A stretch of 64,000 nucleotides of DNA, from positions 650 through 64,649 of the forward strand of contig NZ_JNIE01000003.1 in assembly GCF_000702425.1 (NCBI RefSeq). Direction: 5' to 3'. The notes beneath the pieces were generated by a model, which made no database searches, had not been told where the DNA came from, and was given only the letters and a program-made list of their open reading frames with translations. The DNA comes from Thermocrinis jamiesonii (GTDB lineage Bacteria > Aquificota > Aquificia > Aquificales > Aquificaceae). Below, in pieces: positions 1 through 57,546 of this stretch; positions within the stretch are counted from its first letter, which is position 1; each line of letters opens with the position of its first letter. The position numbers and the translations under genes were made by a program.

Positions 1-438
1 CCTAATCTACCGTGTGGAGTTGAAAGTGCTGTATATACGTCTCAAGCATAGAAATTTCTTTAGCTAGTTCCTAATCTACCGTGTGGAGTTGAAAGCAAAA
101 CTTGAATATGGATTTAGCATTTTTAGAACTTCATGTTCCTAATCTACCGTGTGGAGTTGAAAGACATGAGATTTCTCCGCTTTTAATTTCAACTTTCTCT
201 TGTTCCTAATCTACCGTGTGGAGTTGAAAGAATTCATAATTACCCGGATCTACAACTTTCAATTCGTTTTCAAGTTCCTAATCTACCGTGTGGAGTTGAA
301 AGCTATCTTCTCACCTTTGTAGTAAGAATATTCGTTCTTGAGGTTCCTAATCTACCGTGTGGAGTTGAAAGAGCTTGAAAGCATGTTAAGACAGTTAAAT
401 CGGTTAAATGTTCCTAATCTACCGTGTGGAGTTGAAAG
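1..438 (+). CRISPR. CRISPR array A, leader-distal part, 7 repeats and 6 spacers
   Basis: Seven copies of a 29-bp repeat beginning GTTCCTAATC and ending GGAGTTGAAAG lie at 1-26 (cut by the window edge), 67-95, 135-163, 202-230, 274-302, 343-371 and 410-438. All visible copies are identical. Spacers are 38-43 bp. The 3' GTTGAAAG looks like the 8-nt crRNA handle of type I-B/III systems, so transcription should run left to right and the leader should lie off the left edge. The repeat resembles, from memory, that of Aquifex aeolicus. The type I-B cas genes start 1.3 kb downstream. A single extra copy of the same repeat lies at 16617-16645. Confidence 0.98.
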
Positions 439-532
439 TCGCTATGTATATATTCAGTCAAAAATCAAAAAAGCAAGTGTCAGATTTTGTAAAAAGAGGG
501 GGTTTATATAAGTATGAAGGAGGTATTAAAGG
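439..532. other. spacer between array A and first small gene
   Basis: About 94 bp of AT-rich sequence without repeats. The only clear signal is a strong Shine-Dalgarno (AGGAGGT, 518-524) for the small gene at 533. No convincing -35/-10 pair with normal spacing was found, so the downstream genes may be read from the array transcript or from a promoter not recognised here. Confidence 0.5.
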
Positions 533-1703: not shown

Positions 1704-2711
1704 ATGGAAATGAAAGAAATGAAAGGAATACTAACGCTAACCATCATAACCCAAAGAGCGACAAGCCTAAACTACGGGGAAAACATAGGGAATGTGTCTA
1801 TCCTCAAAAAGCTTTCTTTGGGAGATAACTCTCAAATAACTTACGTGTCTGATAAGGCGCTCAAGTATGAAATGAGGAAAAAAGGTAAAGAAGAAAAAGG
1901 TTGGAAATTGTTAGACGAGAAGGTAAAAGAGGTAATAGAGAATAAAAGGGATAAAGGCAAACTTGATGTGGATAGTTTCGGGAAGGAATTAATAAAGAAT
2001 TACGAAGAATTTGACCTATTCGGTGGGCTTTTGACGAATCTTAAAGGGGCAGATGGTAAAAAATTAGAGCTGTCTTATGGAGACAGCGTAAAAAGAACTG
2101 CACCCGTAAAGGTCACCTATGCCTATTCCATCTCTAAGTTCCAAGGAGACATGGACTTTATGAACAACATAGATGCATACAACAGATATATAAAGCACAT
2201 AGAACAAAAAGACGCCCAGGTTATAACTCAATCCGAACAGCACAGCGCTCATTACTACTACACAATAGCAATAGATTTGGATAGAATAGGAGTGTGGGAA
2301 GGAGAAGACCAATCGGAGGATGTTGTCTCATCTGAAGAAAAGGCAAATAGAGTAAAGGCTCTTTTGGACATAGTAAGAACTCTCTCAAGGCAGATAAAGG
2401 GACGGTGGGAAAATCTGTCTCCCATCTTTGTAATAGGTGGCATTTACAAGATAAAAAATCCGTTCTTTATGGGATGCATAGGTGCAAAGGAAACTGAAGA
2501 CGGAAAGCTAATTTTGGATACCAGCAGACTTATTGACTGTATGAACTTGATCCCTGAGGGGGAAAGGGAAAATACCCTTTGTGGGATACTTTCGGGATAC
2601 TTCGCCAACGAGCAAGAAATAAGAGAAAATCTCCAATGCAAAAGCGTAGGAGAGGTCTTTGAGGAGCTAAAGAAGAGGGTGGAGGAAGTTTATGCAGTGT
2701 CTAAGGCTTAA
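1704..2711 (+). CDS. cas7: Cas7 (Cst2/DevR family), type I-B Cascade backbone
   Basis: The 335-residue protein opens with LTLTIITQRATSLNYGE, typical of the DevR/Cst2 branch of Cas7, which polymerises along the crRNA spacer in Cascade. A GTG at 1695 is possible but GGAGGTG (1691-1697) is placed for the ATG at 1704. The C-terminus overlaps the start of the cas5-cas8 gene by 20 bp, indicating translational coupling. In related type I-B loci the large subunit precedes cas7; here it follows, fused to cas5. The family call rests on the N-terminal pattern and gene order. Confidence 0.85.
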   Translation: MEMKEMKGILTLTIITQRATSLNYGENIGNVSILKKLSLGDNSQITYVSDKALKYEMRKKGKEEKGWKLLDEKVKEVIENKRDKGKLDVDSFGKELIKNYEEFDLFGGLLTNLKGADGKKLELSYGDSVKRTAPVKVTYAYSISKFQGDMDFMNNIDAYNRYIKHIEQKDAQVITQSEQHSAHYYYTIAIDLDRIGVWEGEDQSEDVVSSEEKANRVKALLDIVRTLSRQIKGRWENLSPIFVIGGIYKIKNPFFMGCIGAKETEDGKLILDTSRLIDCMNLIPEGERENTLCGILSGYFANEQEIRENLQCKSVGEVFEELKKRVEEVYAVSKA

Positions 2712-4875
2712 ACTTTACACTCCCACGGGGATTTTTAAAAATCCGCTTTCCATAAAAGGTATAGAGGTCTATCCTCTTCCTCCCTACTCCACCATAATAG
2801 GTCTGATTTACAAGGCAATGGGAAGGAGGTGGGAAGGAGAGTCCTTCCAAATCTCCCTTCACGGAGACTACGAGGCAATATATAGGGATTATGTGTGGTT
2901 TAGGAAGTATAACTTTAAAGATAAAGTTTTGGAGAAGCTTCCTCTACAAGTTCCAATTTTGCACAACCTAAGATTGCTAATACACATAAAAGCTGAAGAA
3001 AAGCTTTTGGAAGAAATGGAAAAAGCCATAAAAGAGCCAAAAGAACTTCTTTTTCTTTCAGGCGGAGAGTATCCAGTAAAGGTGGAAGAAGTAAAAATAG
3101 TCCAATGTGAAGAAAAGGAAATACCCGAAGAGGACGCTATAAAGTTAAAGCACAATGCTTACGTGCCAAAGAAGATATTGGAAAAGGCCAGTGTTGATAA
3201 AAAAGGCGTGCTTTTTAGCCTTTCTTACTTTTACAAAAACTCCCAAAAGCCAAAAACATACTCTTGGATTGATGTTTATTACTTCCAAAAGGGAACCCAA
3301 ATCTACGGCTCGTTGATTTTTGATGAAGATGGCTATCCTGTTTTTTTAACTGAATCAGTAGGGGAAGAGCTAAAAAGACCCGAAGGAGAAGAATACGTAA
3401 AATTCTACGCAGGAAATTGGCTTATGGCAAGTGCTTGCGTTGGAGTTTTGAAGGTTTTGGAAGTGCAAGGACAAAATGTAGAAAATTTAGTGGAAGAAAA
3501 AACTTTAAGGATCCCAAAGGATTTGTGGAAGAAGCTACCGGAAATTTACGCAGACTATCTTTTGAAGGATAAAGAGGTAATTAATAAAAAGCTTAAAGAG
3601 GCTTATGAGGAATATAAAAATAAAAAGCAAAAGCAAAATAACAAAAATATGTTTGACCCTTATAAAATTCTTATATCTCCAAAACTTAGAGATTTTCACA
3701 GCAACAGTCCATTTACTAATCCATCGGTAAAGCATATATCTATAAAGGATGAGGATATAGAAGGGTTCATAAAAGATATAAACCAAGTTTCAGAAAAAGT
3801 CAAAGAAGCCTTCTTGAAAGACTGTGAAAAACTCAAGAAAAAAACTATAGAAACCTCCCAAACTTGCTTTTTCTGTCACGAAAGACAAGCAAAAAACTTT
3901 GTAGATGCCACGAGCTTTACTCCATTATTTGCTAGCCCAGACACTGTTAGAAATTTCATATGGGACCCTATACCAATCTGTAAAGAATGTGAATTTTTGC
4001 TTTATTTTACGAGCGTTGGATTTTATAAGTCAAATGGAAAGTATCTTTTTGTTTATATTCCCGATGATCTTTTGGAAACCTACAGACTGAACCAGATTTT
4101 AAGCACGCAAGAGGAAATAGAGCAAGAAAAGCTTGGAAGAGCGTGGAGCGTAATAAAGCATGTCTTAGAATTAGAAAAACAAAAGAGTAGTTGGATTTTA
4201 GAAAACATCTATTTTGTGGAAATTGAAAAGGTAGGAGACGCTACCGCAAACATATACTCCTTTCACATAAGCCCAAATTTAGCAGAAGCCATCAGTCAGT
4301 TGATTGACAAATATCCTAAAAACCTCCAGCACATATTTTCTGACTTTCTTTTTTACATCTATACAGGGAAGTCTCTTTATGAGTTCTTATTCCTTCTGCT
4401 GTCAGGATTTATCAAAAAGAAAAGTTATAAAAATTTAAAGGTTGAAACCATTGAAAGTAGAATAGTGCAAGCGGGCAAGAATTTGAAGTATTTAAGTAGC
4501 AATTTGCTTTTCTTTATAAACTTTCAGGAGGTGCTAAACATGAACGAACAAAAAGACTATACTAATTGGGCTTTTCGGGCAGGGAAAGAGCTAAAAGCAC
4601 TTTACAAAAAGGACCCAAGCACACAGAAAAAGCTTGAACCACTTACCTACAGACTCCTTGAAGCAATAAGAAGAAAAGACAAAGACTACTTTATCCAAAA
4701 CCTAATAAGGGCATACCTTGAGGTGGAAAAGGAAATTCCCTATCTCTTTAAGGAAGCCCTAAATGACAAAAACTTCAATATGATAGCCTATGCCTTTTTG
4801 ATAGGGCTAAACTCAGAAGAAGAGAGAGGAAAAGAAGATGAAACTAACAAGGGAGAAACTTCAGAGTCTGCTTAA
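2692..4875 (+). CDS. Cas5-Cas8 fusion, type I-B Cascade crRNA-cap and large subunit
   Basis: One continuous frame of 727 residues. Residues 1 to about 225 read as Cas5: the RAMP opening LRLKLYTPTGIFKNP, the VYPLPPYSTIIGL segment, FLSGGEYPVKVEEV and the closing FDEDGYPVFL. From about 232 the sequence becomes Cas8/Cst1-like: KFYAGNWLMASACVGVLKVLE, then a zinc-binding pair C392-x2-C395 and C430-x2-C433. The last 111 residues are helical and can be made separately from an internal start at 4540. Cas5 caps the 5' handle of crRNA and Cas8 recognises PAM. These are normally separate genes. The end overlaps cas3 by 38 bp. Confidence 0.85.
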   Translation: MQCLRLKLYTPTGIFKNPLSIKGIEVYPLPPYSTIIGLIYKAMGRRWEGESFQISLHGDYEAIYRDYVWFRKYNFKDKVLEKLPLQVPILHNLRLLIHIKAEEKLLEEMEKAIKEPKELLFLSGGEYPVKVEEVKIVQCEEKEIPEEDAIKLKHNAYVPKKILEKASVDKKGVLFSLSYFYKNSQKPKTYSWIDVYYFQKGTQIYGSLIFDEDGYPVFLTESVGEELKRPEGEEYVKFYAGNWLMASACVGVLKVLEVQGQNVENLVEEKTLRIPKDLWKKLPEIYADYLLKDKEVINKKLKEAYEEYKNKKQKQNNKNMFDPYKILISPKLRDFHSNSPFTNPSVKHISIKDEDIEGFIKDINQVSEKVKEAFLKDCEKLKKKTIETSQTCFFCHERQAKNFVDATSFTPLFASPDTVRNFIWDPIPICKECEFLLYFTSVGFYKSNGKYLFVYIPDDLLETYRLNQILSTQEEIEQEKLGRAWSVIKHVLELEKQKSSWILENIYFVEIEKVGDATANIYSFHISPNLAEAISQLIDKYPKNLQHIFSDFLFYIYTGKSLYEFLFLLLSGFIKKKSYKNLKVETIESRIVQAGKNLKYLSSNLLFFINFQEVLNMNEQKDYTNWAFRAGKELKALYKKDPSTQKKLEPLTYRLLEAIRRKDKDYFIQNLIRAYLEVEKEIPYLFKEALNDKNFNMIAYAFLIGLNSEEERGKEDETNKGETSESA
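4540..4875 (+). CDS. predicted Cas11 small subunit from internal start in cas8
   Basis: Inside the fused cas5-cas8 frame, AGGAGGTG at 4526-4533 lies 6 nt before an in-frame ATG at 4540 (codon 617). Translation from there gives a 111-residue, charged, strongly helical protein (MNEQKDYTNWAFRAGKELK at its start) ending at the same stop. In several type I-B, I-C and I-D systems the small subunit Cas11 is known to be made this way, as an in-frame internal product of the large-subunit gene. Size, helical character and the quality of the ribosome binding site all fit. Production of the protein is inferred, not shown. Confidence 0.75.
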   Translation: MNEQKDYTNWAFRAGKELKALYKKDPSTQKKLEPLTYRLLEAIRRKDKDYFIQNLIRAYLEVEKEIPYLFKEALNDKNFNMIAYAFLIGLNSEEERGKEDETNKGETSESA

Positions 4876-7018
4876 AGAACGTTGGGCAAAGGATGACGGA
4901 ACAACAATAAGGGAGCATACAGACAAACTTTTGGAAAACTTAGAAAAACTCAAAGAATATTACAAAGAAGAAATAGAGGAGCTAATACCAAAAGAGCTTC
5001 CATGTGAGCTAAGGGATAGATTTTGGGATATCTTAGAGCTTGCCTGCGAGTATCACGATTATGGCAAGATTCACTGTATGTTTCAGAAAAAAGTTGAAAA
5101 CAAAAACATAGAGCTGATAAAAGGGCTTCCGGAGGTAAAGCACAATCTTCTTTCGCCCGCCTTTGTGAATGTAAAAGACGAACTGACCAAAAAAATTGTC
5201 AGACTTTTGGTTTTACATCACCATCCTGTGGAAAGAGTATCAACAGAAGGTGTGGAAAGGGTTTTAAAGGAAGAGTTTGGCTTTGAGAAAAGTCCCATAA
5301 GCTTTTTGCTAAAAAAGGGGGAAATGGATTACTTAAGGGACGATATTGCAAGGAAGTTTGGACTTCCTGAAAAAGAATTAATTAAATACTACCGCCTTTT
5401 GAAGGGCTTGCTTCTTCGTATAGACCACGCAAGCAGTTCAAAGCAAGCACAAGAAGTTGAAGAAAAGCCCCCGGACGACACACTAAGTTTTGTAGATGAG
5501 TTTTTCAAAGGAATGAACATCAATCTCAACGAAATGCAAGTATTTATAAAAGAGAACAGGGATAAAAACCTTGTGGTTATAGCTCCTACCGGATCGGGCA
5601 AAACGGAAGCAGGCTTTATATATCTTCAGAGGAAAGGCTTTTTTATGTTGCCATACAGAGTTTCCGCCAATAGCATTTACACAAGGGCAGAGAAAATTTT
5701 TGGAAATTGTGCAGGACTTTTGCACTCAAGTGCATTAAACTACGTGCTTGAAAGAGATGAACAAAACGAAGACATTAAAAACAACAAAGAAGATGCTGTC
5801 TTTTTGAACTACTTCCTTTCCCGCAACTTTGCTAAACCTATAATCGTCTGCACCCCCGACCAGCTTATGCACTTTGTCTTTAGATACAAGGGCTTTGAAA
5901 AGTATTATGCAACCGCTCTCTATTCAAGGCTTGTTATTGATGAGTTGCAATCTTATGATCCTATCACCTTAGCCTTTATAGTAAAAGCTTTGGAAGTGTT
6001 AGCTCAAAACGGCGGAAAGTTTTTAGTTATGACCGCCACTTTCCCTGAGTTCTTGAAAGAAAGGTTTGAAGGTATGGGGGTAGAGTTTAAAGAGTTTAGC
6101 TTACAGCAAAAGCCTTATCACAATGTTAAGATCATACAGGGCACCATAGACAGTGGTATAGAAGAGATAGTAAAGCTTTCCCAAGAAGCCAAAGTGCTTG
6201 TGGTAGTAAATACTGTCAGAAAGGCAATTGAGCTAAAAGGGAAAATCCCTAACGCTAAGCTTTTGCACAGCAGGTTTATACTAAGGGACAGAAAGAAAAA
6301 AGAAAATGAGATAAAAGAGTTCTTTGATGGTTGGGAAAATGGCGTATGGATTACCACTCAGCTTGCGGAAGTGTCTTTGGACCTTGATGCGGACTACCTT
6401 TTTACAGAGCTTTCCACTGCAGACAGTTTGATTCAACGCATGGGAAGATGCAACAGAAGAGGACAAAAACCAACGAAAGAACCAAACGTATTTGTATTCA
6501 CAAATAATTGTTCGGGGATAGGTTCGGTGTATTACAAAGATTTGCACGAAAAAACTCTGCACAATTTAAAAGATGGAGCTTGGGATTGGAAATTTAAGTG
6601 GGAGCTTATGGAAAAGGTCTATTCGGAAAACGCTTTGAGAAATACTAAGTATTTGGAGAACTTTAATAAAGCTTACCGCTATATAACAAACCTCTGGGAA
6701 GGAACGGATAGCCTTACAATAAGCAAGTCCCAAGCGAAGGAGCTTTTCAGAGACATAGATGCAGTGCAAGTAATTCCCAAAGAGTTTGAGGAAGAAGTAA
6801 AAGGGCTATTGCAAAAGTGGGAAGAGGCAAAAGGAAACTTAGCAGAAAGAGTAAAACTACTAAGCCAAATCCTTGAATATAGCTTTTCTCTTCCTGTGTG
6901 GTCTTTGAAAGAGTTGGAAAAGCAGAGAATTCACGATAGGCTAAATATCTACTACGTGGAAGGAAACTATAGCAAAGACACAGGCTTTGAGCTAATAAGC
7001 TCTGCAGATACAGAGTGA
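4838..7018 (+). CDS. cas3: Cas3 nuclease-helicase (HD plus SF2 helicase)
   Basis: The 726-residue protein carries an N-terminal HD nuclease domain (H27, H73-D74 in CEYHDYGKIH, a later HHH cluster) followed by SF2 helicase motifs: Walker A APTGSGKT at about 249-256, DELQ at 368-371, MTATFPE, and motif VI QRMGRCNRRG near 533-542. It degrades DNA recruited by Cascade. The start overlaps the cas5-cas8 end by 38 bp, with GAGAGAGG just upstream of the ATG. All key residues look intact, so the type I-B interference module appears functional. Confidence 0.95.
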   Translation: MKLTREKLQSLLKERWAKDDGTTIREHTDKLLENLEKLKEYYKEEIEELIPKELPCELRDRFWDILELACEYHDYGKIHCMFQKKVENKNIELIKGLPEVKHNLLSPAFVNVKDELTKKIVRLLVLHHHPVERVSTEGVERVLKEEFGFEKSPISFLLKKGEMDYLRDDIARKFGLPEKELIKYYRLLKGLLLRIDHASSSKQAQEVEEKPPDDTLSFVDEFFKGMNINLNEMQVFIKENRDKNLVVIAPTGSGKTEAGFIYLQRKGFFMLPYRVSANSIYTRAEKIFGNCAGLLHSSALNYVLERDEQNEDIKNNKEDAVFLNYFLSRNFAKPIIVCTPDQLMHFVFRYKGFEKYYATALYSRLVIDELQSYDPITLAFIVKALEVLAQNGGKFLVMTATFPEFLKERFEGMGVEFKEFSLQQKPYHNVKIIQGTIDSGIEEIVKLSQEAKVLVVVNTVRKAIELKGKIPNAKLLHSRFILRDRKKKENEIKEFFDGWENGVWITTQLAEVSLDLDADYLFTELSTADSLIQRMGRCNRRGQKPTKEPNVFVFTNNCSGIGSVYYKDLHEKTLHNLKDGAWDWKFKWELMEKVYSENALRNTKYLENFNKAYRYITNLWEGTDSLTISKSQAKELFRDIDAVQVIPKEFEEEVKGLLQKWEEAKGNLAERVKLLSQILEYSFSLPVWSLKELEKQRIHDRLNIYYVEGNYSKDTGFELISSADTE

Positions 7019-7047: not shown

Positions 7048-7764
7048 ATGCGGTTTAGGGTGAGGCTTGTTAGGGCTACGGAAGATAGTTTGCCTATAAG
7101 TTTAGATTACAGGAGAAGGTTTATATCCCTTTTGAAGAAAATCTTTGGAGAAGAGTTTGAGGAGGAAAGGCCAAAGCCTTACACCTTTGCGGTGTATTTA
7201 GGAAAAAGTGCAAAGATTGAAGGGGAGCATATAAAAGATGTGGAGGCTATAAACTTTAGATTTTCCACAGGAGATTCTGAAACTGCCATATCCTTTTACA
7301 ACGGAACGCTGAGGCTTATTAAAGAGAACTACCTTCACGATATGAACCCAAAGATTGGAAGTGTGTATTTTAGGATTGTGGATGTGGATGTTGAAAAAGA
7401 AAATGAACCTACGGGCTTTTTTAAGACGCTGTCTCCTGTAGTGGTGGAAAGGGCGGTAAATTCTAAAAATCCCAAAGAAAAGTATGCTACACCAAAGGAC
7501 AGAGATTTTATGTGGTGGCTTTTGGAAAACACTCAAAGGCGCTATAGGTCCATAGTTGGAAAAGATTTAGAATTAAAAACCTTTGAGTTTGAGCCAATAA
7601 GCATAAAGGAAGAGTTTATAAAACACTACGGAGGATATATCAGAAGCTTTTTGGGAAGGTTCAGACTTTACACAGAAAGCAAGGAGCTTTTAAAGTTTGT
7701 TTATCAGTATGGCTTGGGTGTCAGAACAGGACAGGGCTTTGGCTATTTGGAATGTATGGTATAA
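7048..7764 (+). CDS. cas6: Cas6 crRNA endoribonuclease, type I-B copy
   Basis: The protein has the Cas6 RAMP opening MRFRVRLV and the C-terminal glycine-rich loop YGLGVRTGQGFGYLE that contacts repeat RNA. It cleaves the pre-crRNA at the base of the repeat. The ATG at 7048 is chosen because the family N-terminus starts there (238 aa). A GTG at 7015 overlapping the cas3 stop as GTGA would add 11 residues and give translational coupling; neither has a strong ribosome binding site. A second, divergent cas6 lies at 8714. Confidence 0.88.
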   Translation: MRFRVRLVRATEDSLPISLDYRRRFISLLKKIFGEEFEEERPKPYTFAVYLGKSAKIEGEHIKDVEAINFRFSTGDSETAISFYNGTLRLIKENYLHDMNPKIGSVYFRIVDVDVEKENEPTGFFKTLSPVVVERAVNSKNPKEKYATPKDRDFMWWLLENTQRRYRSIVGKDLELKTFEFEPISIKEEFIKHYGGYIRSFLGRFRLYTESKELLKFVYQYGLGVRTGQGFGYLECMV

Positions 7765-8222: not shown

Positions 8223-8271
8223 TTGACAAAATTATTGATTTACCTTATTTTGATTAAGGTGGTAAGTTGGG
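8223..8271 (+). promoter_or_regulatory. CRISPR leader and promoter of array B
   Basis: TTGACA (8223-8228), a 17-bp spacer and TATTTT (8246-8251) form a good sigma-70-type promoter ending 20 bp before the first repeat. The 49 bp from TTGACA to the repeat match 45 of 49 positions with the leader at 16568-16616, although that one precedes the other repeat family. An AGGGGGACCCCCT inverted repeat abuts the -35 on the left (8211-8223) and is absent at the second leader. Confidence 0.88.
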
Positions 8272-8649
8272 GTTTCAAGCCCACCGTGTGGGATGGAGAC
8301 TTAACCTTAATAGGCTCCTTGCTTGTATCTTCATACCAACTGTTTCAAGCCCACTGTGTGGGATGGAGACGTAAAGCTATCATACAAACCAAACGCCACA
8401 CCAACCATAAGTTTCAAGCCCACTGTGTGGGATGGAGACTTTAAATTATGTTCTTTAGCAATTCTCTCCAATTCTTCATATTTAAGGTTCTAAGCCCACC
8501 GTGTGGGATGGAGACACCTCGGCCTTAATCTTCTCGGGAGCGCGAACTTGTGTTTCAAGCCCACTGCGTGGGATGGAGACAGGGTTTTGGAAAGGATAAA
8601 GCGAGTTGCCTCATCCTCGTGTTTCAAGCCCACTGTGTGGGATGGAGAA
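8272..8649 (+). CRISPR. CRISPR array B, 6 repeats and 5 spacers
   Basis: Six 29-bp repeats starting GTTTCAAGCCCAC and ending GGGATGGAGAC lie at 8272-8300, 8342-8370, 8411-8439, 8487-8515, 8552-8580 and 8621-8649. The last has a changed final base, marking the leader-distal end. Spacers are 41, 40, 47, 36 and 40 bp. Copies vary at the loop (CGT, TGT, TGC) between CCCAC and GTGGG, while the 5-bp stem is constant; the fourth copy has CT for TC at positions 4-5. The repeat aligns with repeat A in the same orientation at 19 of 29 positions when the CCG variant is used. Confidence 0.97.
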
Positions 8650-8713
8650 AAGCTTTTAAGAGAAAGCCTTTAGGTTAATGAGCAAAAAAATACTGAATTA
8701 GAATATTATCTGT

Positions 8714-9466
8714 ATGCCTGTTTTGGTTGAACTTAGCTTTAGGTTAAAGAAAACCCCAGAGGTCTTATATCCTACGGATGTTCATGGACTGTTTTTTAGC
8801 CTTTTTGAGGAAAGCATAGCACAAAGACTGCACAAAGAAGCCAAAAAGCCCTTCAGCATAAAAGGTTTTTCCGTGAAAGATTCCACTCTTAGGCTTGAGC
8901 TTGCCCTTTTGGAGGACGGTCTTTATCCTGCTCTCATTCACAGCTACTACTTTCCCAAAGAGGGCTTACACATAAGGGGTATTCCCCTTAGTCCCACAAA
9001 GGATAAAGGCTTAAAAGAAAAGAAAGCTCTTAGCTATCAGGAGCTTTTGGAAACATTGCCCCACAAAAGGCTCCAAATGGAATTTGTTAGTCCCACTGCC
9101 TTTAACAGGTTTAAGTTTGACTATCCATTCCCCGAGCCTCACCTTATTTTTTCTAACCTTTTGAGTCGGTGGAACACCTTTTCGGAGTTTCCTTTGGAGC
9201 TTGCAGAGACAGAGGTTCTAAAGGGTTTGATGGTTTATGAGTTTGAAGGCTCTACCCAAGAGTTTATCATAGACCAAAGGCTAAAAAGGATAGGCTTTGT
9301 GGGAAGGGTGGGATTTCTTATAAAGGATCAAGAATTAGCCAAAAAGCTGTCTGTTCTTGCCCTATTTTCTAACTTTGCGGGCGTGGGCATAAAAACCACC
9401 ATGGGAATGGGAGTAGTCAAAACCTCTCTAAAAGGAGCCATCCAAAGGTCAGACCTCGTTGGTTGA
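8714..9466 (+). CDS. cas6: Cas6, second copy, beside array B and type III-A genes
   Basis: The 250-residue protein has a RAMP opening (VLVELSFRLKKTPEVLYPTD) and the C-terminal Cas6 glycine-rich loop FSNFAGVGIKTTMGMGVV. It differs strongly from the cas6 at 7048, including its longer internal region, so it is not a recent duplicate. It starts 64 bp after the last repeat of array B with no clear ribosome binding site, so expression may depend on read-through from the array. Its end overlaps the convergent csm5 by 50 bp. It probably processes crRNAs for the Csm complex or for repeat B. Confidence 0.88.
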   Translation: MPVLVELSFRLKKTPEVLYPTDVHGLFFSLFEESIAQRLHKEAKKPFSIKGFSVKDSTLRLELALLEDGLYPALIHSYYFPKEGLHIRGIPLSPTKDKGLKEKKALSYQELLETLPHKRLQMEFVSPTAFNRFKFDYPFPEPHLIFSNLLSRWNTFSEFPLELAETEVLKGLMVYEFEGSTQEFIIDQRLKRIGFVGRVGFLIKDQELAKKLSVLALFSNFAGVGIKTTMGMGVVKTSLKGAIQRSDLVG

Positions 9467-10532
9467 TCCTTCTGGTTTTGTTGGTTTCTTGCCTTGAAGT
9501 GTGTTGAGTTTCTCTAAAAAACCAGTCAAAAAGCCTATTATCCTTTTCTTTCAGAATTAGCAAAAGAGTTGTGCTCAAAATTCCCTCGTGCTTTCCTATT
9601 CTTAGCAAAACTCCATTGCCATTAAGATATCCTTTTAGACTCTCTAAGTGCTTTGCAGTATCTGGTCGGCGATTTTTAAAAAACTTAATTTCCTCGTCCA
9701 AAAGTTTTGAATAGAATTTTTGTGAGCATTCCCTCAAAAAGTTCCAAAAAGTGTCCTCATCAGAAAAGTATCTTCCAACTTCAGGAAGGCTTTCTACTCT
9801 TTTTAGTCCTTCATAAGCATTTTTGTTTATTTTTATCTCCACTTCAAGCTCTACGTTCTCTTTTATTGCTTCGCATGGGTATAGGGGCTTGTTGGAACCT
9901 AACAGTGTGGGAACTTCTACCCTAAGATACTCATAAGGCAAAGGTTGGCTATCTGGGATGAAGAGGGCCTTCATTATGTCAAACTGTGCATCCTTTCTTT
10001 CTTGTGAGTAAAAAACCATTCTTTCTAACTCCTTTTCTGCTTTATTTATCATTCTTTCTAATTCCTTTTTTGCTTTACTTAGTTTTTCTTGGTTTATTAC
10101 CTGTCTTGCGTTTAAAAGCTTTTTTACTTTATTGATAACAACATAAGGCTTTTCCATAAACCAAGCGCAAGCTATTAAATGTCTTATGGAACCCTTTAGC
10201 TCGCTACCAGGGACATAAGGACCTTCCAAAGTTTTTATAAACTCCTCCACCTGGGAGCTAATAAGGTTTCCGTTGATCTCAAGCTCGTAGTCAGGCTCCA
10301 AATTAAGATTGAAATTTTTCAAAAAGGTGGAAAGTCTAAGATCCCCTTGGTTTTTGAACCAAAGATAGGCGTTTGTCCTCAGCTGTGGGTTGGGTATCCT
10401 TTCAATGGCTGAAAGAATACGGTCAAACCTAAAGACCTTTAGCCTTCCTCCATCTACCAAAAACTCAAGACTTGAGATCCTCTCTCCGTTTCCTATGTGA
10501 ATGGGGGAAAGGGTTTTAACTCGCACCTTCAT
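9417..10532 (-). CDS. csm5: Csm5, type III-A effector subunit
   Basis: The 371-residue protein begins MKVRVKTLSPIHIGNGE, the characteristic opening of Csm5 (a Cas7-like RAMP capping the 3' end of the Csm filament), and contains the glycine-rich turn PYVPGSELKGSIRH. The ATG at 10532 is preceded by GAGGTGG 5 nt away; longer upstream frame is not part of the family. It is the last gene of the csm operon, 2 bp after csm4. The C-terminus overlaps the convergent second cas6 and is rich in charged residues. Confidence 0.9.
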   Translation of the reverse strand: MKVRVKTLSPIHIGNGERISSLEFLVDGGRLKVFRFDRILSAIERIPNPQLRTNAYLWFKNQGDLRLSTFLKNFNLNLEPDYELEINGNLISSQVEEFIKTLEGPYVPGSELKGSIRHLIACAWFMEKPYVVINKVKKLLNARQVINQEKLSKAKKELERMINKAEKELERMVFYSQERKDAQFDIMKALFIPDSQPLPYEYLRVEVPTLLGSNKPLYPCEAIKENVELEVEIKINKNAYEGLKRVESLPEVGRYFSDEDTFWNFLRECSQKFYSKLLDEEIKFFKNRRPDTAKHLESLKGYLNGNGVLLRIGKHEGILSTTLLLILKEKDNRLFDWFFRETQHTSRQETNKTRRINQRGLTFGWLLLERF

Positions 10533-10534
10533 CT

Positions 10535-11428
10535 TTACCACCTCGCAAAGAGTGGAAAACCTAAGCCGTATTGATAAACGGAAAGGATACCTTCCTTTAG
10601 CACTTCTTTTAGACTCCCATACCAATCTTTTTGATTTTTTACTTTAACCTGCGAGCCGGGTGTAAGGTAGCAGACAGTATTTTTCCAAACCCTTCTTGTT
10701 AAACCGTTTTCCACCGCTGATCTTTGAACCTTTAGATCGTAGTAACTCTCCTTTAGCTCAAAGTCTTTGTCATAAAAGCACTCAGAAATCAAAAAAGCCC
10801 TTGAGGTTTTGTTAGAAATAAACTTCTCTATTCCCTCTGGTGGCTCTGTCTCCTCAAGTCTATACCTTCCCATCCCTGTAGTTTTGTTTCCTCCAAGTTG
10901 GGAAAACTCAAGGCAAGCTTTAACTAAGGGCTCAAAGCTTTCGTCAAAAAACCTTACAAGCACACCAAAGGAAGGTAGCCAATAGGTGGGCTCGTTGTAA
11001 AGCTCTCCTCCTGTGGTGGTCATGGTAAGACGGTTTATAAAGGCATGAGGTATAACTTCCTGCTTTATTTCTTGCCTTAATCCTTCAAACATCTCCGTGG
11101 GTTCGCTTTCCAAAACCTTTTTAAACACTTCCCAACTTACCCATTTTAACCCTTTGAACTTTTTGTATTGCTTGTATTCCTCTGCATTTTTTGGAATGAT
11201 GGGTATAAAATGAATGGGTCTTGGAAAGATCCACAGCCCATTTTTCCAAGGCAAAGGTGCGGAAATTATAAAAGGTGGATCTCCTTCCTTAAACCTATTT
11301 AAAGTTTTCGAAAGTTTTTCTTCTGACTCAAGCCAACGGATGCCCCAACATATGGCACCAAAAATGGTATTGGTGGTGGGCACGCTCCTAAAGGCACTAA
11401 GAGGTCTAAAGACAAAAGCCTTAAGCAT
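10535..11428 (-). CDS. csm4: Csm4, type III-A effector subunit
   Basis: The 297-residue RAMP protein begins MLKAFVFRPLSAFRS, has the GGNKTTGMGRYRL segment and ends YQYGLGFPLF, a typical Csm4 C-terminus. Csm4 is the Cas5-like subunit that binds the crRNA 5' handle and docks Cas10. The ATG at 11428 overlaps the csm3 end by 8 bp; a GTG at 11440 is an alternative. Gene order between csm3 and csm5 supports the call. Confidence 0.9.
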   Translation of the reverse strand: MLKAFVFRPLSAFRSVPTTNTIFGAICWGIRWLESEEKLSKTLNRFKEGDPPFIISAPLPWKNGLWIFPRPIHFIPIIPKNAEEYKQYKKFKGLKWVSWEVFKKVLESEPTEMFEGLRQEIKQEVIPHAFINRLTMTTTGGELYNEPTYWLPSFGVLVRFFDESFEPLVKACLEFSQLGGNKTTGMGRYRLEETEPPEGIEKFISNKTSRAFLISECFYDKDFELKESYYDLKVQRSAVENGLTRRVWKNTVCYLTPGSQVKVKNQKDWYGSLKEVLKEGILSVYQYGLGFPLFARW

Positions 11429-12278
11429 TGAAAAGAGCACCCAGTTTTTGCTTTATGGTTTCGTAATCTTCAAGTATCTCCTGCACGGTGGGTTTTTCAA
11501 TTATTGGTTTTTCTTTGTTCTTTTCTCCAAAGTAGTATTCCTTTGGTCTTAGGATTACCCTTAGGTTTTCAAACCTGACTTTTCCAGAACCCCTTGAGCC
11601 ATATCCCCCAAGGTAATCATCCTCCAAGAGCCTCATACCCTCAAAGACCACTCTCAAAAGCTCAGGGTCTTGCTCTGCAAACAGATGAAAAGCCATCTCC
11701 CCAAAAAAGACAACACCTGCGGGCACCCTTTCCACCTTCCTTGGGTTTGCTCTGGAAGTAAGCCTGTTTATGGCGTTTTCTGTCTTTACCTCTGTGAAGA
11801 TGTTTTCACCCAAGATGTTCTTCAGCATCTGTAAGCTCTTCCAAGTGGGATAAGCATCAAAGACCCTTAGCCTTGGGGGTCCGGGAAGTTCCTCCAATGG
11901 CAAATTATCTAAAGTCTTTGCATCACCTGTGCCAAAGACTTTGCAAACCTCACACTTTCCACAAACGCAAGCCCTTCCTGCTTCTTCAACAATATTCTTG
12001 GCACTATGTATAGCTCTTTTAATCATGTCATCCACTCTTCCCTTAGCCCACTCCAAAAGAGACCTCATCTTGCCCTTCAAGGAAGAACCGGGTATGTAGG
12101 GAGCACCTTCGGGTAGGACGTTCCCTTCGCCGTCGTAGTTCTCTATCTCTGCCAAGGTCTTTATAACCGGGTTGTCCAATCCCCCTATTTCAAAGTTTTC
12201 CTTAGAACCTCCTACCCTCAAACCAGTTATTGCCTTCAGCTCATATCTAATTATTACAGTGCCTTTGTAAGAGAACAT
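11421..12278 (-). CDS. csm3: Csm3, target-RNA-cleaving backbone subunit
   Basis: The 285-residue Cas7-like protein contains IGGLDNPVIK with D35 at the position of the known catalytic aspartate of Csm3, PYIPGSSLKGKMRS, and a cysteine cluster CVCGKCEVC followed by KVFG, as in other Csm3 proteins. It should cleave target RNA at 6-nt intervals along the filament. Start at ATG 12278 follows AGGAGGT by about 7 nt; GTG 12287 is less likely. All key residues look intact. Confidence 0.93.
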   Translation of the reverse strand: MFSYKGTVIIRYELKAITGLRVGGSKENFEIGGLDNPVIKTLAEIENYDGEGNVLPEGAPYIPGSSLKGKMRSLLEWAKGRVDDMIKRAIHSAKNIVEEAGRACVCGKCEVCKVFGTGDAKTLDNLPLEELPGPPRLRVFDAYPTWKSLQMLKNILGENIFTEVKTENAINRLTSRANPRKVERVPAGVVFFGEMAFHLFAEQDPELLRVVFEGMRLLEDDYLGGYGSRGSGKVRFENLRVILRPKEYYFGEKNKEKPIIEKPTVQEILEDYETIKQKLGALFNA

Positions 12279-12291
12279 CACCCCCACCTCC

Positions 12292-12735
12292 TTAGGATTT
12301 CTTAGAGTAAGCTACCATAGCCATCAAAAGATCGTAAGCCTTCTCAAAAGCTTTTTTGCTCTTATTTCTTTCTATATTATCAAAAAGCCTGAACATAAGC
12401 TCTTTGAAATCTTTGTCCAACACGCCTCTCTTTGCTTGATACTCTAAAATGGCATAAAGCTTGTATAACTTTTTCAAAGCTTCTTCAACATTTTCGTCCT
12501 TCTTTAGTCCATCCCTTATCGCTTTGAACTCTTGAAAGACCTTTCTCAGTTGCACAGCTGTAATATTTATATCTTCTATCGCTTTCTTAACGTAGCCTTC
12601 TTCGGGATGGAAAATGTCCTTCTCAGAAAATTCGGCTATTGATTCATTACTAAGCTTTTCCTTTAACTTTTTTACATTTTCTGACTCTTTATCATTGTTT
12701 TTTTGTCTGTTCTGTTGTGGATTGTTTCTGCTCAT
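12292..12735 (-). CDS. csm2: Csm2, small subunit of type III-A complex
   Basis: A 147-residue, highly charged, helical protein with a polar Asn/Gln/Lys-rich N-terminus (residues 1-25) and the Csm2-like core KKLYKLYAILEYQAKRGVLDKDFKEL. Csm2 forms the inner filament that lines the target RNA. It lies 2 bp after cas10 and 13 bp before csm3, the standard operon position. Confidence 0.9.
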   Translation of the reverse strand: MSRNNPQQNRQKNNDKESENVKKLKEKLSNESIAEFSEKDIFHPEEGYVKKAIEDINITAVQLRKVFQEFKAIRDGLKKDENVEEALKKLYKLYAILEYQAKRGVLDKDFKELMFRLFDNIERNKSKKAFEKAYDLLMAMVAYSKKS

Positions 12736-12737
12736 CG

Positions 12738-15089
12738 CTACCCTCCTAAGTTGTTATTTATATAATGACTATTTTTTGTCTTTTCTGACATTCCTCTTGT
12801 TTTCATTAAAACAAGCTTTAAGATAAGCTCTGCGTAGTCTTTGATGTTATAGTTGTTTCCTGGGTCAAGTATTAGACTTTCAAGTTCTCTTTGTTGCTCT
12901 TCTTCTTTTATGTTTCTGTAGAGCTGATAGTAAAACATTGGATAAAACCTCATGCTTATTCCGTTGCCCCTTTTGTTTGCCTTCAAGAGAGTGTAAATCC
13001 TGTAAAGAAGTGTTCTGTGGTTAGGAGCATCAAAGTTTGCCAAAAAGCGCTTTAGTTCCTCAAGGGCATATCTAAACTTTTCCCAAGGAAGTGGTTCTTT
13101 CCAAAGGCTTATGCAGTTCTTTTCCACTTTGGCATGTTCCTTTTCCTGCTCTGCCCCATCTGCACTAAACCTTATGGGATAGTTAGGTCTTTGGAAGAAG
13201 ACTCCTGCAGAAAGGGTAAAGCACGGATTGTAGCAGGTATAGGCGCTAAAGTCCTTCTCGAGCTCTTTTGCTACTTCCAATGCAGTTTCCCAAGGTGCGC
13301 AGAAAAACAGGTCATCTCCTCCCGAATAGACCACATAAACTTTGTTTTTGAATTGCTTTTGCTCCAAAAGAGTGTTTATGTATCCAGAAAAGAACAGTTC
13401 CAAGCTTCTGCTTAGGGTTGCTACTCTGGAGAGAGAATAGTCCTTTTTTAAACCCTGCGAGAATATAAGCCCCAAATTATCCACATCCATCTTGACAAAA
13501 GCCAAAAGTTTGTAGCCCTCTTCCTCTTCTTCCACAAGCTCGTTAAAGTCCTTAACACTACCGTCTTCTTCCAAAGGAACGGTGTTTGCCAAAAAGAAAA
13601 AGCCGTCCGCTTTGTCCTCAAAGTCTGTGGAGTTTAGCAGTAACAGGGTGTCCTCTGGTAGAGTGTAGGCAACTTGATCTTTGGAATAAACGCTAACACC
13701 ACCTATATCCTCAAGATAAAGGTCTCCCATCTCAGGAGAAAAGACTACATACTCCGCCCTTGGAATTTTTGCTCCCACCTCTTGGAAAAGCTCGCACCAA
13801 TTACAAAACTCTTGGCTCTCTGGCTTTAGGTTGGTTTGACACGAAGGGCACACTTCGTAGTTATCGGGTCCAAAGGGGTTGGCTAATTTGTCAAAGTTTT
13901 CCAGTATGGTGGAGAACTTTTGAAATTTCTTGCGTCCTACCTCTTCGTAAAGCTCATGTATTTTCTCTCCCAGTGTGCCTACCCCTAAATCACTTCCCTT
14001 TAACCTTAACCAACCTAAGACAACCCCCAAGTGTCCCCCAAACTCTCTGACCAAAACCTCATCCACTTTCCTTTGTAGCTCTTCAAGTTTTTTCTCTATA
14101 CCCTCTTCGTAGCCAATTATAAGCTGGAACTTTCCACCGCCCGCATAGAGGAGATTTACCATAGGATATTCAAGTTCCTTCAAGAAAAATCTGCCAAGGA
14201 TTATGGGAAGCACAGAAAGGAAGAAACTTCTTCCTCTGAGCCTTTTTCCAACTCCCCTTATGTTAGAAAGTTGATATAAAAACCTTTGAATACCCGTTAT
14301 GTCCCCCTCAACGAGCAGAAATTCCACTGCGTTTAGCCCACCGTTAAGTCTCTCTTTGTTGTAGTCTGTCCAAAGGCTACTTACCAAAGCACTGGCAACT
14401 CTTAGGTGGTCAAAGAGGGATATGTCTGGAAAGTGATTGGTTCCCCTCTCTTTGTCGTAGGTAGAAGCGGGCACGCACCAAAGATATTTGTAAAGTAGAT
14501 AATAGAGCTTTGTGAGTGTCTTTTGTGGATCCTTAAAGTCAAGTTTGCTTAGGTGTGTTTTCAAAGCTTGAAGTAGGTCTTTATATTTTTGCACTCCAGA
14601 GGTCCCAATTTGACTGGCATCCTTTGGAAAAATAACCTCTTTTTCCAACTTCAAAGGCTCCAACTCGTATTCGTGTTTTTCTCCATCTAAGTAAGTTTTG
14701 GCGCATTCTAAATCTACCAAGCCGAAAATACTCTTTAGTCTTTTTTCCTCTTTTCTTTGGGTAGTTTGATCCACGCTTTGTTCTTCTCTTCTGCTCCTTT
14801 CACTGCTGGCACAGTGGTCTGCAATTTGTTGGGCTATGTGGTATAGGTTATTCGGCTCTGGATTGTGATGGTAGGCACCAGAAAGGATAAGCTCTTGCAC
14901 TTCTTGGCTTACTCCTTTCCTTTCCAAAAGCTCCTCTAAAAACTTATAAGAATACACCGCATGTGCATATTTGAACTTTCTCCTTTCTTCTTCTTCAGCC
15001 CTTTCTTCTCCAGCCCTGTCTATGAGCTTTCCTATGTCGTGAAGTAACCCTCCTATTGCAAGCCAACTCCTAATCTCTAACTTTTCCAT
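12738..15089 (-). CDS. cas10: Cas10/Csm1, cyclic oligoadenylate synthase and DNase of type III-A
   Basis: The 783-residue protein has an N-terminal HD domain (H17-D18 in GLLHDIGKL), a zinc-finger region (CPSCQTN and FCNWCELF), and the palm motif GGDD at about 590-593 in YVVYSGGDDLFF. The HD domain cuts single-stranded DNA and the GGDD palm makes cyclic oligoadenylate in this family. Both sites are intact. The start is ATG 15089 after a G-rich ribosome binding site; a TTG directly upstream is ignored. It is the first gene of a five-gene minus-strand operon. No CARF effector gene is near. Confidence 0.95.
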   Translation of the reverse strand: MEKLEIRSWLAIGGLLHDIGKLIDRAGEERAEEEERRKFKYAHAVYSYKFLEELLERKGVSQEVQELILSGAYHHNPEPNNLYHIAQQIADHCASSERSRREEQSVDQTTQRKEEKRLKSIFGLVDLECAKTYLDGEKHEYELEPLKLEKEVIFPKDASQIGTSGVQKYKDLLQALKTHLSKLDFKDPQKTLTKLYYLLYKYLWCVPASTYDKERGTNHFPDISLFDHLRVASALVSSLWTDYNKERLNGGLNAVEFLLVEGDITGIQRFLYQLSNIRGVGKRLRGRSFFLSVLPIILGRFFLKELEYPMVNLLYAGGGKFQLIIGYEEGIEKKLEELQRKVDEVLVREFGGHLGVVLGWLRLKGSDLGVGTLGEKIHELYEEVGRKKFQKFSTILENFDKLANPFGPDNYEVCPSCQTNLKPESQEFCNWCELFQEVGAKIPRAEYVVFSPEMGDLYLEDIGGVSVYSKDQVAYTLPEDTLLLLNSTDFEDKADGFFFLANTVPLEEDGSVKDFNELVEEEEEGYKLLAFVKMDVDNLGLIFSQGLKKDYSLSRVATLSRSLELFFSGYINTLLEQKQFKNKVYVVYSGGDDLFFCAPWETALEVAKELEKDFSAYTCYNPCFTLSAGVFFQRPNYPIRFSADGAEQEKEHAKVEKNCISLWKEPLPWEKFRYALEELKRFLANFDAPNHRTLLYRIYTLLKANKRGNGISMRFYPMFYYQLYRNIKEEEQQRELESLILDPGNNYNIKDYAELILKLVLMKTRGMSEKTKNSHYINNNLGG

Positions 15090-15106
15090 CAACCCCCCTT
15101 TGCTAT

Positions 15107-54463: not shown

Positions 54464-57546
<3,083 letters not shown>

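Follow-up and report, generated by a model that had tools for sequence, protein, structure and literature searches.

Internal translation of the small Cascade subunit Cas11 from cas8b genes has been described in several systems. In Haloferax volcanii it was established by tagging, mass spectrometry and the substitution Met545Ala (PMC11899642), and an internal cas8b start is used for Cas11b in the type I-B system of Synechocystis sp. PCC 6714 (PMC11096372). The solved type I-B Cascade contains one Cas8, one Cas5 and three Cas11 subunits (PMC11096372). An internal Cas11 start has also been assigned in the Cas8b1 gene of the type I-B1 system of Thermotoga maritima, but no Cas11 was observed in E. 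coli (PMC13199841); presumably the site is silent there due to a poor ribosome-binding site or start codon. In Cas8b1 the internal start was previously a prediction that had failed in the sole heterologous test that we found, that of the T. maritima genes in E. coli. Fusions of Cas8 and Cas5 are known from the type I-F CAST of V. cholerae (PMC9938897) and from an incomplete I-C system (PMC10910872).

The window (the whole stretch of 64,000 nucleotides analysed here, from Thermocrinis jamiesonii) contains a type I-B operon with a single gene for Cas5 and Cas8b1 and a candidate start of Cas11 inside it. The following features were identified.

1704-2711, plus strand: cas7 (Cst2/DevR), immediately upstream of the fused gene (TIGR01875/TIGR02585)
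2692-4875, plus strand: fused cas5-cas8b1 gene, 727 aa (TIGR01895 and TIGR01908 in one open frame)
2692-3345, plus strand: Cas5 part, about residues 1-218 (profile match 1-213; model 1-220 against solved Cas5)
3391-4872, plus strand: Cas8b1 part, including a C-terminal helical domain of its own (TIGR01908; model 232-557 against 8H67)
3391-3393, plus strand: GAA codon where the ancestral cas8 start codon stood (alignment with unfused relatives)
4526-4533, plus strand: candidate internal Shine-Dalgarno (SD) box AGGAGGTG (sequence; anti-SD duplex -11.6; conservation beyond protein constraint)
4540-4875, plus strand: predicted nested cas11b, ATG at 4540, 111 aa, residues 617-727 (PADLOC Cas11b; helical bundle; standalone homologues in genomes G007 and G014)
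4838-7018, plus strand: cas3, whose start overlaps the cas8/cas11 end in a different frame (TIGR01587, TIGR01596)
7048-7764, plus strand: cas6 (TIGR01877)

The operon is of type I-B1, with cas7 (Cst2), cas5b, cas3 and cas6 accompanying Cas8b1/Cst1. The Cas5b profile TIGR01895 matches the fused protein with 1.7e-53, and the Cas8b1/Cst1 profile TIGR01908 matches residues 387-674 with 4.1e-37 (128 bits, the cut-off being 19.4). The two zinc-binding CxxC motifs of Cas8b1 (C392, C395, C430, C433) are nearly invariant. In the AlphaFold2 model, the Cas5 part aligns to Cas5 of solved Cascades with Z up to 12.9, and residues 232-557 align to Cas8b of the type I-B Cascade 8H67 with Z 9.1. The operon is flanked by two CRISPR arrays with differing repeats (window positions 1-440 and 8260-8650). 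The minus strand carries a type III (Csm-like) locus at about 9417 to 15092, and a second Cas6 was found at 8714-9466.

The sequence-only reading had proposed an SD box and an in-frame ATG within the fused gene. Both are present: the SD box is separated by the 6-nt spacer CTAAAC from the ATG at 4540-4542, and the frame continues to the TAA at 4873-4875, encoding 111 residues that are modelled as a helical bundle, as had also been proposed. In the AlphaFold2 model the Cas8 core ends with the helix 603-616 and the C-terminal bundle opens with the helix 620-640, and the start is located between the two. The duplex with the anti-SD has -11.6 kcal/mol at the internal site versus -9.3 at the start of the fused gene itself; the values for the neighbours are -8.2 (cas3) and -13.5 kcal/mol (cas7), and the cas7 SD box is the same 8-mer, which occurs nine times in the window. 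The earlier estimate that the site equals any ribosome-binding site of the window was nearly right, as only three first ATGs of long ORFs have SD boxes stronger than -11.6.

An SD box of this strength precedes 2 of the 268 internal in-frame ATGs, the background set being the long ORFs of the window. One of the two is the ATG at 4540, and the other, at 57460, belongs to a strong internal SD-ATG pair (57443-57462) in a protease-like ORF (56665-57546). The latter site serves as a negative control: 30 relatives have the peptide EEV..LM almost unchanged, but the strong SD is present in only four of them, and since it is not conserved the site is evidently due to chance. The same could hold for the site in cas8, whose SD-like letters would then simply encode the conserved Q-E-V before a conserved Met with no internal initiation. 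Synonymous codon shuffling is compatible with this, yielding p about 0.04 for the gene of the window and less significant values for many of the relatives; the reason is that an SD is already favoured by residues such as Q-E-V or G-G. Since the shuffles of individual genes are weak, tests across clades and over codon columns were used in their place. The single site in this window is not distinguishable from chance, and it is the relatives that decide.

The comparison comprised 40 distinct Cas8b1 genes, each with an open frame of 400 aa or more, from 136 Aquificota genomes and one other record; broken or frameshifted copies (L092 and L093) were excluded from the conservation counts. An in-frame ATG 99-115 codons upstream of the stop codon is present in 39 of the 40 genes. 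An SD of -8.8 or stronger precedes 38 of these 39 homologous ATGs; among the other internal ATGs of these genes, 191 in number, it precedes none. The homologous ATG was selected by the best SD in a 23-codon window, which introduces a small bias, and related genes are non-independent samples. The exception (L052, Aquificota) has the ATG with a merely weak SD (-6.4). Absence of the site from close homologues had been named beforehand as the refuting result; SD and ATG are retained together throughout the phylum, in 38 of the 40 genes. A search of genome contigs with a single protein as the query yielded one relative only, and no relatives of the locus were found in viral contigs. The survey beyond Aquificota comprised three distant Bacillota genes from PLSDB records, and these provide leads only: near the equivalent position of Cas8b1, AAGGAG precedes GTG/ATG in Listeria, AAAGGAG precedes TTG in Acetoanaerobium, and a weaker GAGGA precedes ATG in Lactobacillus.

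Some further observations concern individual relatives. A decayed cas8-cas3 remnant (L092:2410-3190, G076:C40) still has an SD box and ATG, CAGGAGGAGTTAAAAATG, at the place of Cas11, and a stop codon follows soon after. In L069 (G119) and L072 (G117) the cas8 open frames of 574 and 640 codons contain no ATG upstream of the Cas11 start, and thus full-length Cas8 must start there at a non-ATG codon.

The peptides encoded by the SD box vary by lineage (FQEV/FQEE, IGG/VGG/FGG, FGGGS, LEGG/LEGR, LQKEET, SEEGKD, LKEGLN), and GGAGG begins at -13, -12, -10 or -9. Thus the SD is preserved by at least seven peptide solutions in two codon registers, contrary to what is expected if it only reflected a conserved peptide. 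Codon usage also argues against chance. In the clade with FQE (17 genes), 71 columns with degenerate codons are invariant in the protein; only 4 of them are restricted to one codon, and three of these four are the F-Q-E immediately before the start; CAG and GAG are invariant there, while three other invariant Glu columns mix GAA and GAG. In these alignments, the relatives of 57460 keep the protein without the SD, whereas the cas8 genes keep the SD without the protein. The pattern points to strong selection on the internal SD and ATG across the phylum, beyond the constraint on the protein.

The only Cas8b1 gene without the site (1 of 40) is that of G007, which has CAAGAAAGTCTAAACAAT in place of CAGGAGGTGCTAAACATG in the others. 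In the tree it is nested within a clade that has the site (support 98/96), and therefore the loss is derived. Two standalone genes were found between cas8 and cas3 of this genome.

L027, 3747-4052: standalone cas11-like gene, 101 aa, preceded by its own GGAGGTG
L027, 4042-4365: standalone cas11-like gene, 107 aa

Over 65 residues the 101-aa protein shares 66% identity with the internal product of the window, whereas its identity to the C-terminus of the Cas8 of its own operon is just 38%. The two tandem genes (L027:3747-4365, G007:C1) are clearly diverged from one another, and the second may encode a specialised small subunit or be decaying. Judging from these sequences, the small subunit of G007 has moved to its own genes, and the copy within Cas8 has lost its start and diverged. 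That the site is lost exactly where standalone copies of cas11 exist is not explained by chance, which in view of all of the above is a very improbable explanation.

A more distant split was observed in G014. Its second I-B locus (L132:581-7743, G014:C53) consists of cas6, a short cas8, a standalone 174-aa cas11b, cas7, cas5 and cas3. Here Cas8 stops short of the Cas11 domain, and the standalone gene follows (PADLOC, 1e-49). The other I-B locus of the same genome (L007) has the internal Cas11 start.

Standalone cas11 genes in G007 and G014 are homologous to the predicted 111-residue product, which is also matched by PADLOC models of Cas11b (1.7e-9 and 1.9e-6). Its predicted structure is a helical bundle with pLDDT 83.8. 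CRISPR small subunits and the C-terminal domains of Cas8b and Cas10 are prominent among its structural neighbours, with Z 4.3-6.9, which is modest for a helical protein. These neighbours include the I-A chain 7TR6_E (Z 6.9, rmsd 3.5, 86 aligned residues) and the end of Csm1, 9NO4_A (Z 6.7); residues 434-547 of the I-B chain 8H67_L match with Z 5.8. Foldseek alone gave no significant match for the small protein, and no significant homologue came up when the PDB was searched by sequence with the fused protein or with the Cas11 profile. As the fold matches are modest, it is chiefly the sequence profiles and the operon context that support homology to Cas11. The profile, the standalone homologues and, more weakly, the predicted fold support a Cas11-like product of the 4540 frame. 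Weak matches of the Cas11 profile were discarded, since this profile also falsely matches a NusB-like protein.

A conserved internal SD could also act on the full-length protein, either by pausing ribosomes at a domain border for folding or by coupling translation to the next gene. Indeed, the SD lies where the Cas8 core gives way to the C-terminal bundle, and the start of cas3 lies within the end of the fused gene. However, 39 of 40 genes retain the ATG, although pausing does not depend on an ATG placed at SD spacing. The site is retained in both observed gene orders, cas7-cas5-cas8-cas3 and cas6-cas8-cas7-cas5-cas3, and therefore it is not there to drive cas3: in the latter order cas8 is followed by cas7, which rules out coupling to cas3 as the general reason. 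Neither version accounts for the standalone cas11 genes of G007, and we regard both as extremely unlikely. In some relatives an unrelated gene with a signal-peptide-like N-terminus lies between cas8 and cas3 (L035:8452-9018, L034:9075-9876).

Proteolysis of Cas8 in place of initiation would be in line with the Cas8b fragments seen earlier in Clostridium thermocellum and Methanococcus maripaludis, first read as fragmentation (cited in PMC11899642). However, it leaves the constraint on the SD codons and the ATG without reason, and in Haloferax the small protein disappears upon the substitution Met545Ala (PMC11899642), so that this reading has hardly any probability left.

Comparison of the relatives thus favours a genuine internal translation start, with Cas5-Cas8b1 translated from 2692 and Cas11 started separately at 4540; we assign this reading a probability of about 0.93. 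The following scheme is proposed, in which the production of Cas11, the number of copies and the position in the complex are inferences. Ribosomes starting at 2692 would produce the Cas5-Cas8b1 fusion protein, one per Cascade complex. The stronger internal SD would recruit ribosomes independently, and these would start at 4540 and produce the 111-aa Cas11, which by analogy with the type I-B complex (PMC11096372) would be required in several copies per Cascade. Cas11 and the matching end domain of Cas8 would together make up the 'belly', in which the displaced DNA strand is held.

The fusion was found in five genomes. The fused genes are 71-94% identical and form one clade (support 100/100); therefore the fusion is not a sequencing error and probably has a single origin. 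A cas locus with 93-94% identity to that of this Aquificaceae window lies on a contig filed as Candidatus Calescibacterium nevadense (L026), possibly a misplaced contig or a recent transfer. In unfused relatives with the same gene order, the cas8 ATG is at the end of cas5 in a different frame, with an SD of -7 to -12.5, mostly strong. In all five fused genes the ancestral cas8 ATG and its SD are gone, the codon of the window at this position being GAA. We sought a separate Cas8 start near the junction of the five fused genes and found none, the best in-frame SD being -4.3 or weaker. By this comparison the fusion erased the start of Cas8 while that of Cas11 was kept; this is what one would predict from a need for equal amounts of Cas5 and Cas8 and an excess of Cas11.

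The suggestion that one gene serves three Cascade roles holds as a prediction, and the three roles are probable; the polypeptides, on the other hand, are probably two and not three, since Cas8 no longer has a start of its own after the fusion. Fusion was possible for Cas5 and Cas8, which are used 1:1, and a start of Cas8 alone would then be dispensable; Cas11 is used in excess, and its separate initiation would have to stay. It is quite likely that two starts serve three roles in this way, only the 1:1 subunits having been fused, and that G007 represents the opposite case, in which Cas11 escaped. The divergence of the inner copy in its Cas8 suggests release from the gene-within-gene constraint. 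The fused genes and G007 thus form a natural test of why a gene within a gene persists, namely for setting unequal subunit numbers.

Given strong selection across the phylum, Cas8b1 complexes rebuilt without free Cas11 are probably incomplete, and automatic annotation probably overlooks this subunit. The fused gene represents a compact I-B Cascade from a thermophile. A type I-B Cas5-Cas8 fusion with internal Cas11 was not found in the literature searched, whose coverage excluded most subscription papers, and therefore the mechanism is known and the gene architecture is new. Internal Cas11 starts in cas8b are already known; the location of such a start in a Cas5-Cas8 fusion is new, as are the test across the phylum and the relocation of Cas11 to separate genes.

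As in Haloferax and Synechocystis, the start is in frame in the 3' part of cas8b, and the predicted small helical subunit corresponds to the C-terminus of Cas8b. However, those genes belong to other Cas8b subfamilies and are not fused to cas5, and the Haloferax SD is degenerate (GGATG), whereas that of the window is strong. The Cas8b1/Cst1 family and the expected position of Cas11 are shared with T. maritima, where, in contrast, Cas5 and Cas8b1 are separate genes; the SD and ATG of the window are near ideal. The fusions in the I-F CAST and in the I-C system likewise combine Cas5 and Cas8 in a single polypeptide, but the present system is of type I-B, Cas5 comes first, and the gene contains an internal Cas11 start. 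Finally, the standalone cas11b of some I-B systems (PADLOC PDLC01193/PDLC01190; L132 in G014) encodes a homologous small subunit in an I-B operon; there it is a gene of its own beside a Cas8 without this domain, whereas the window has it nested within the large gene.
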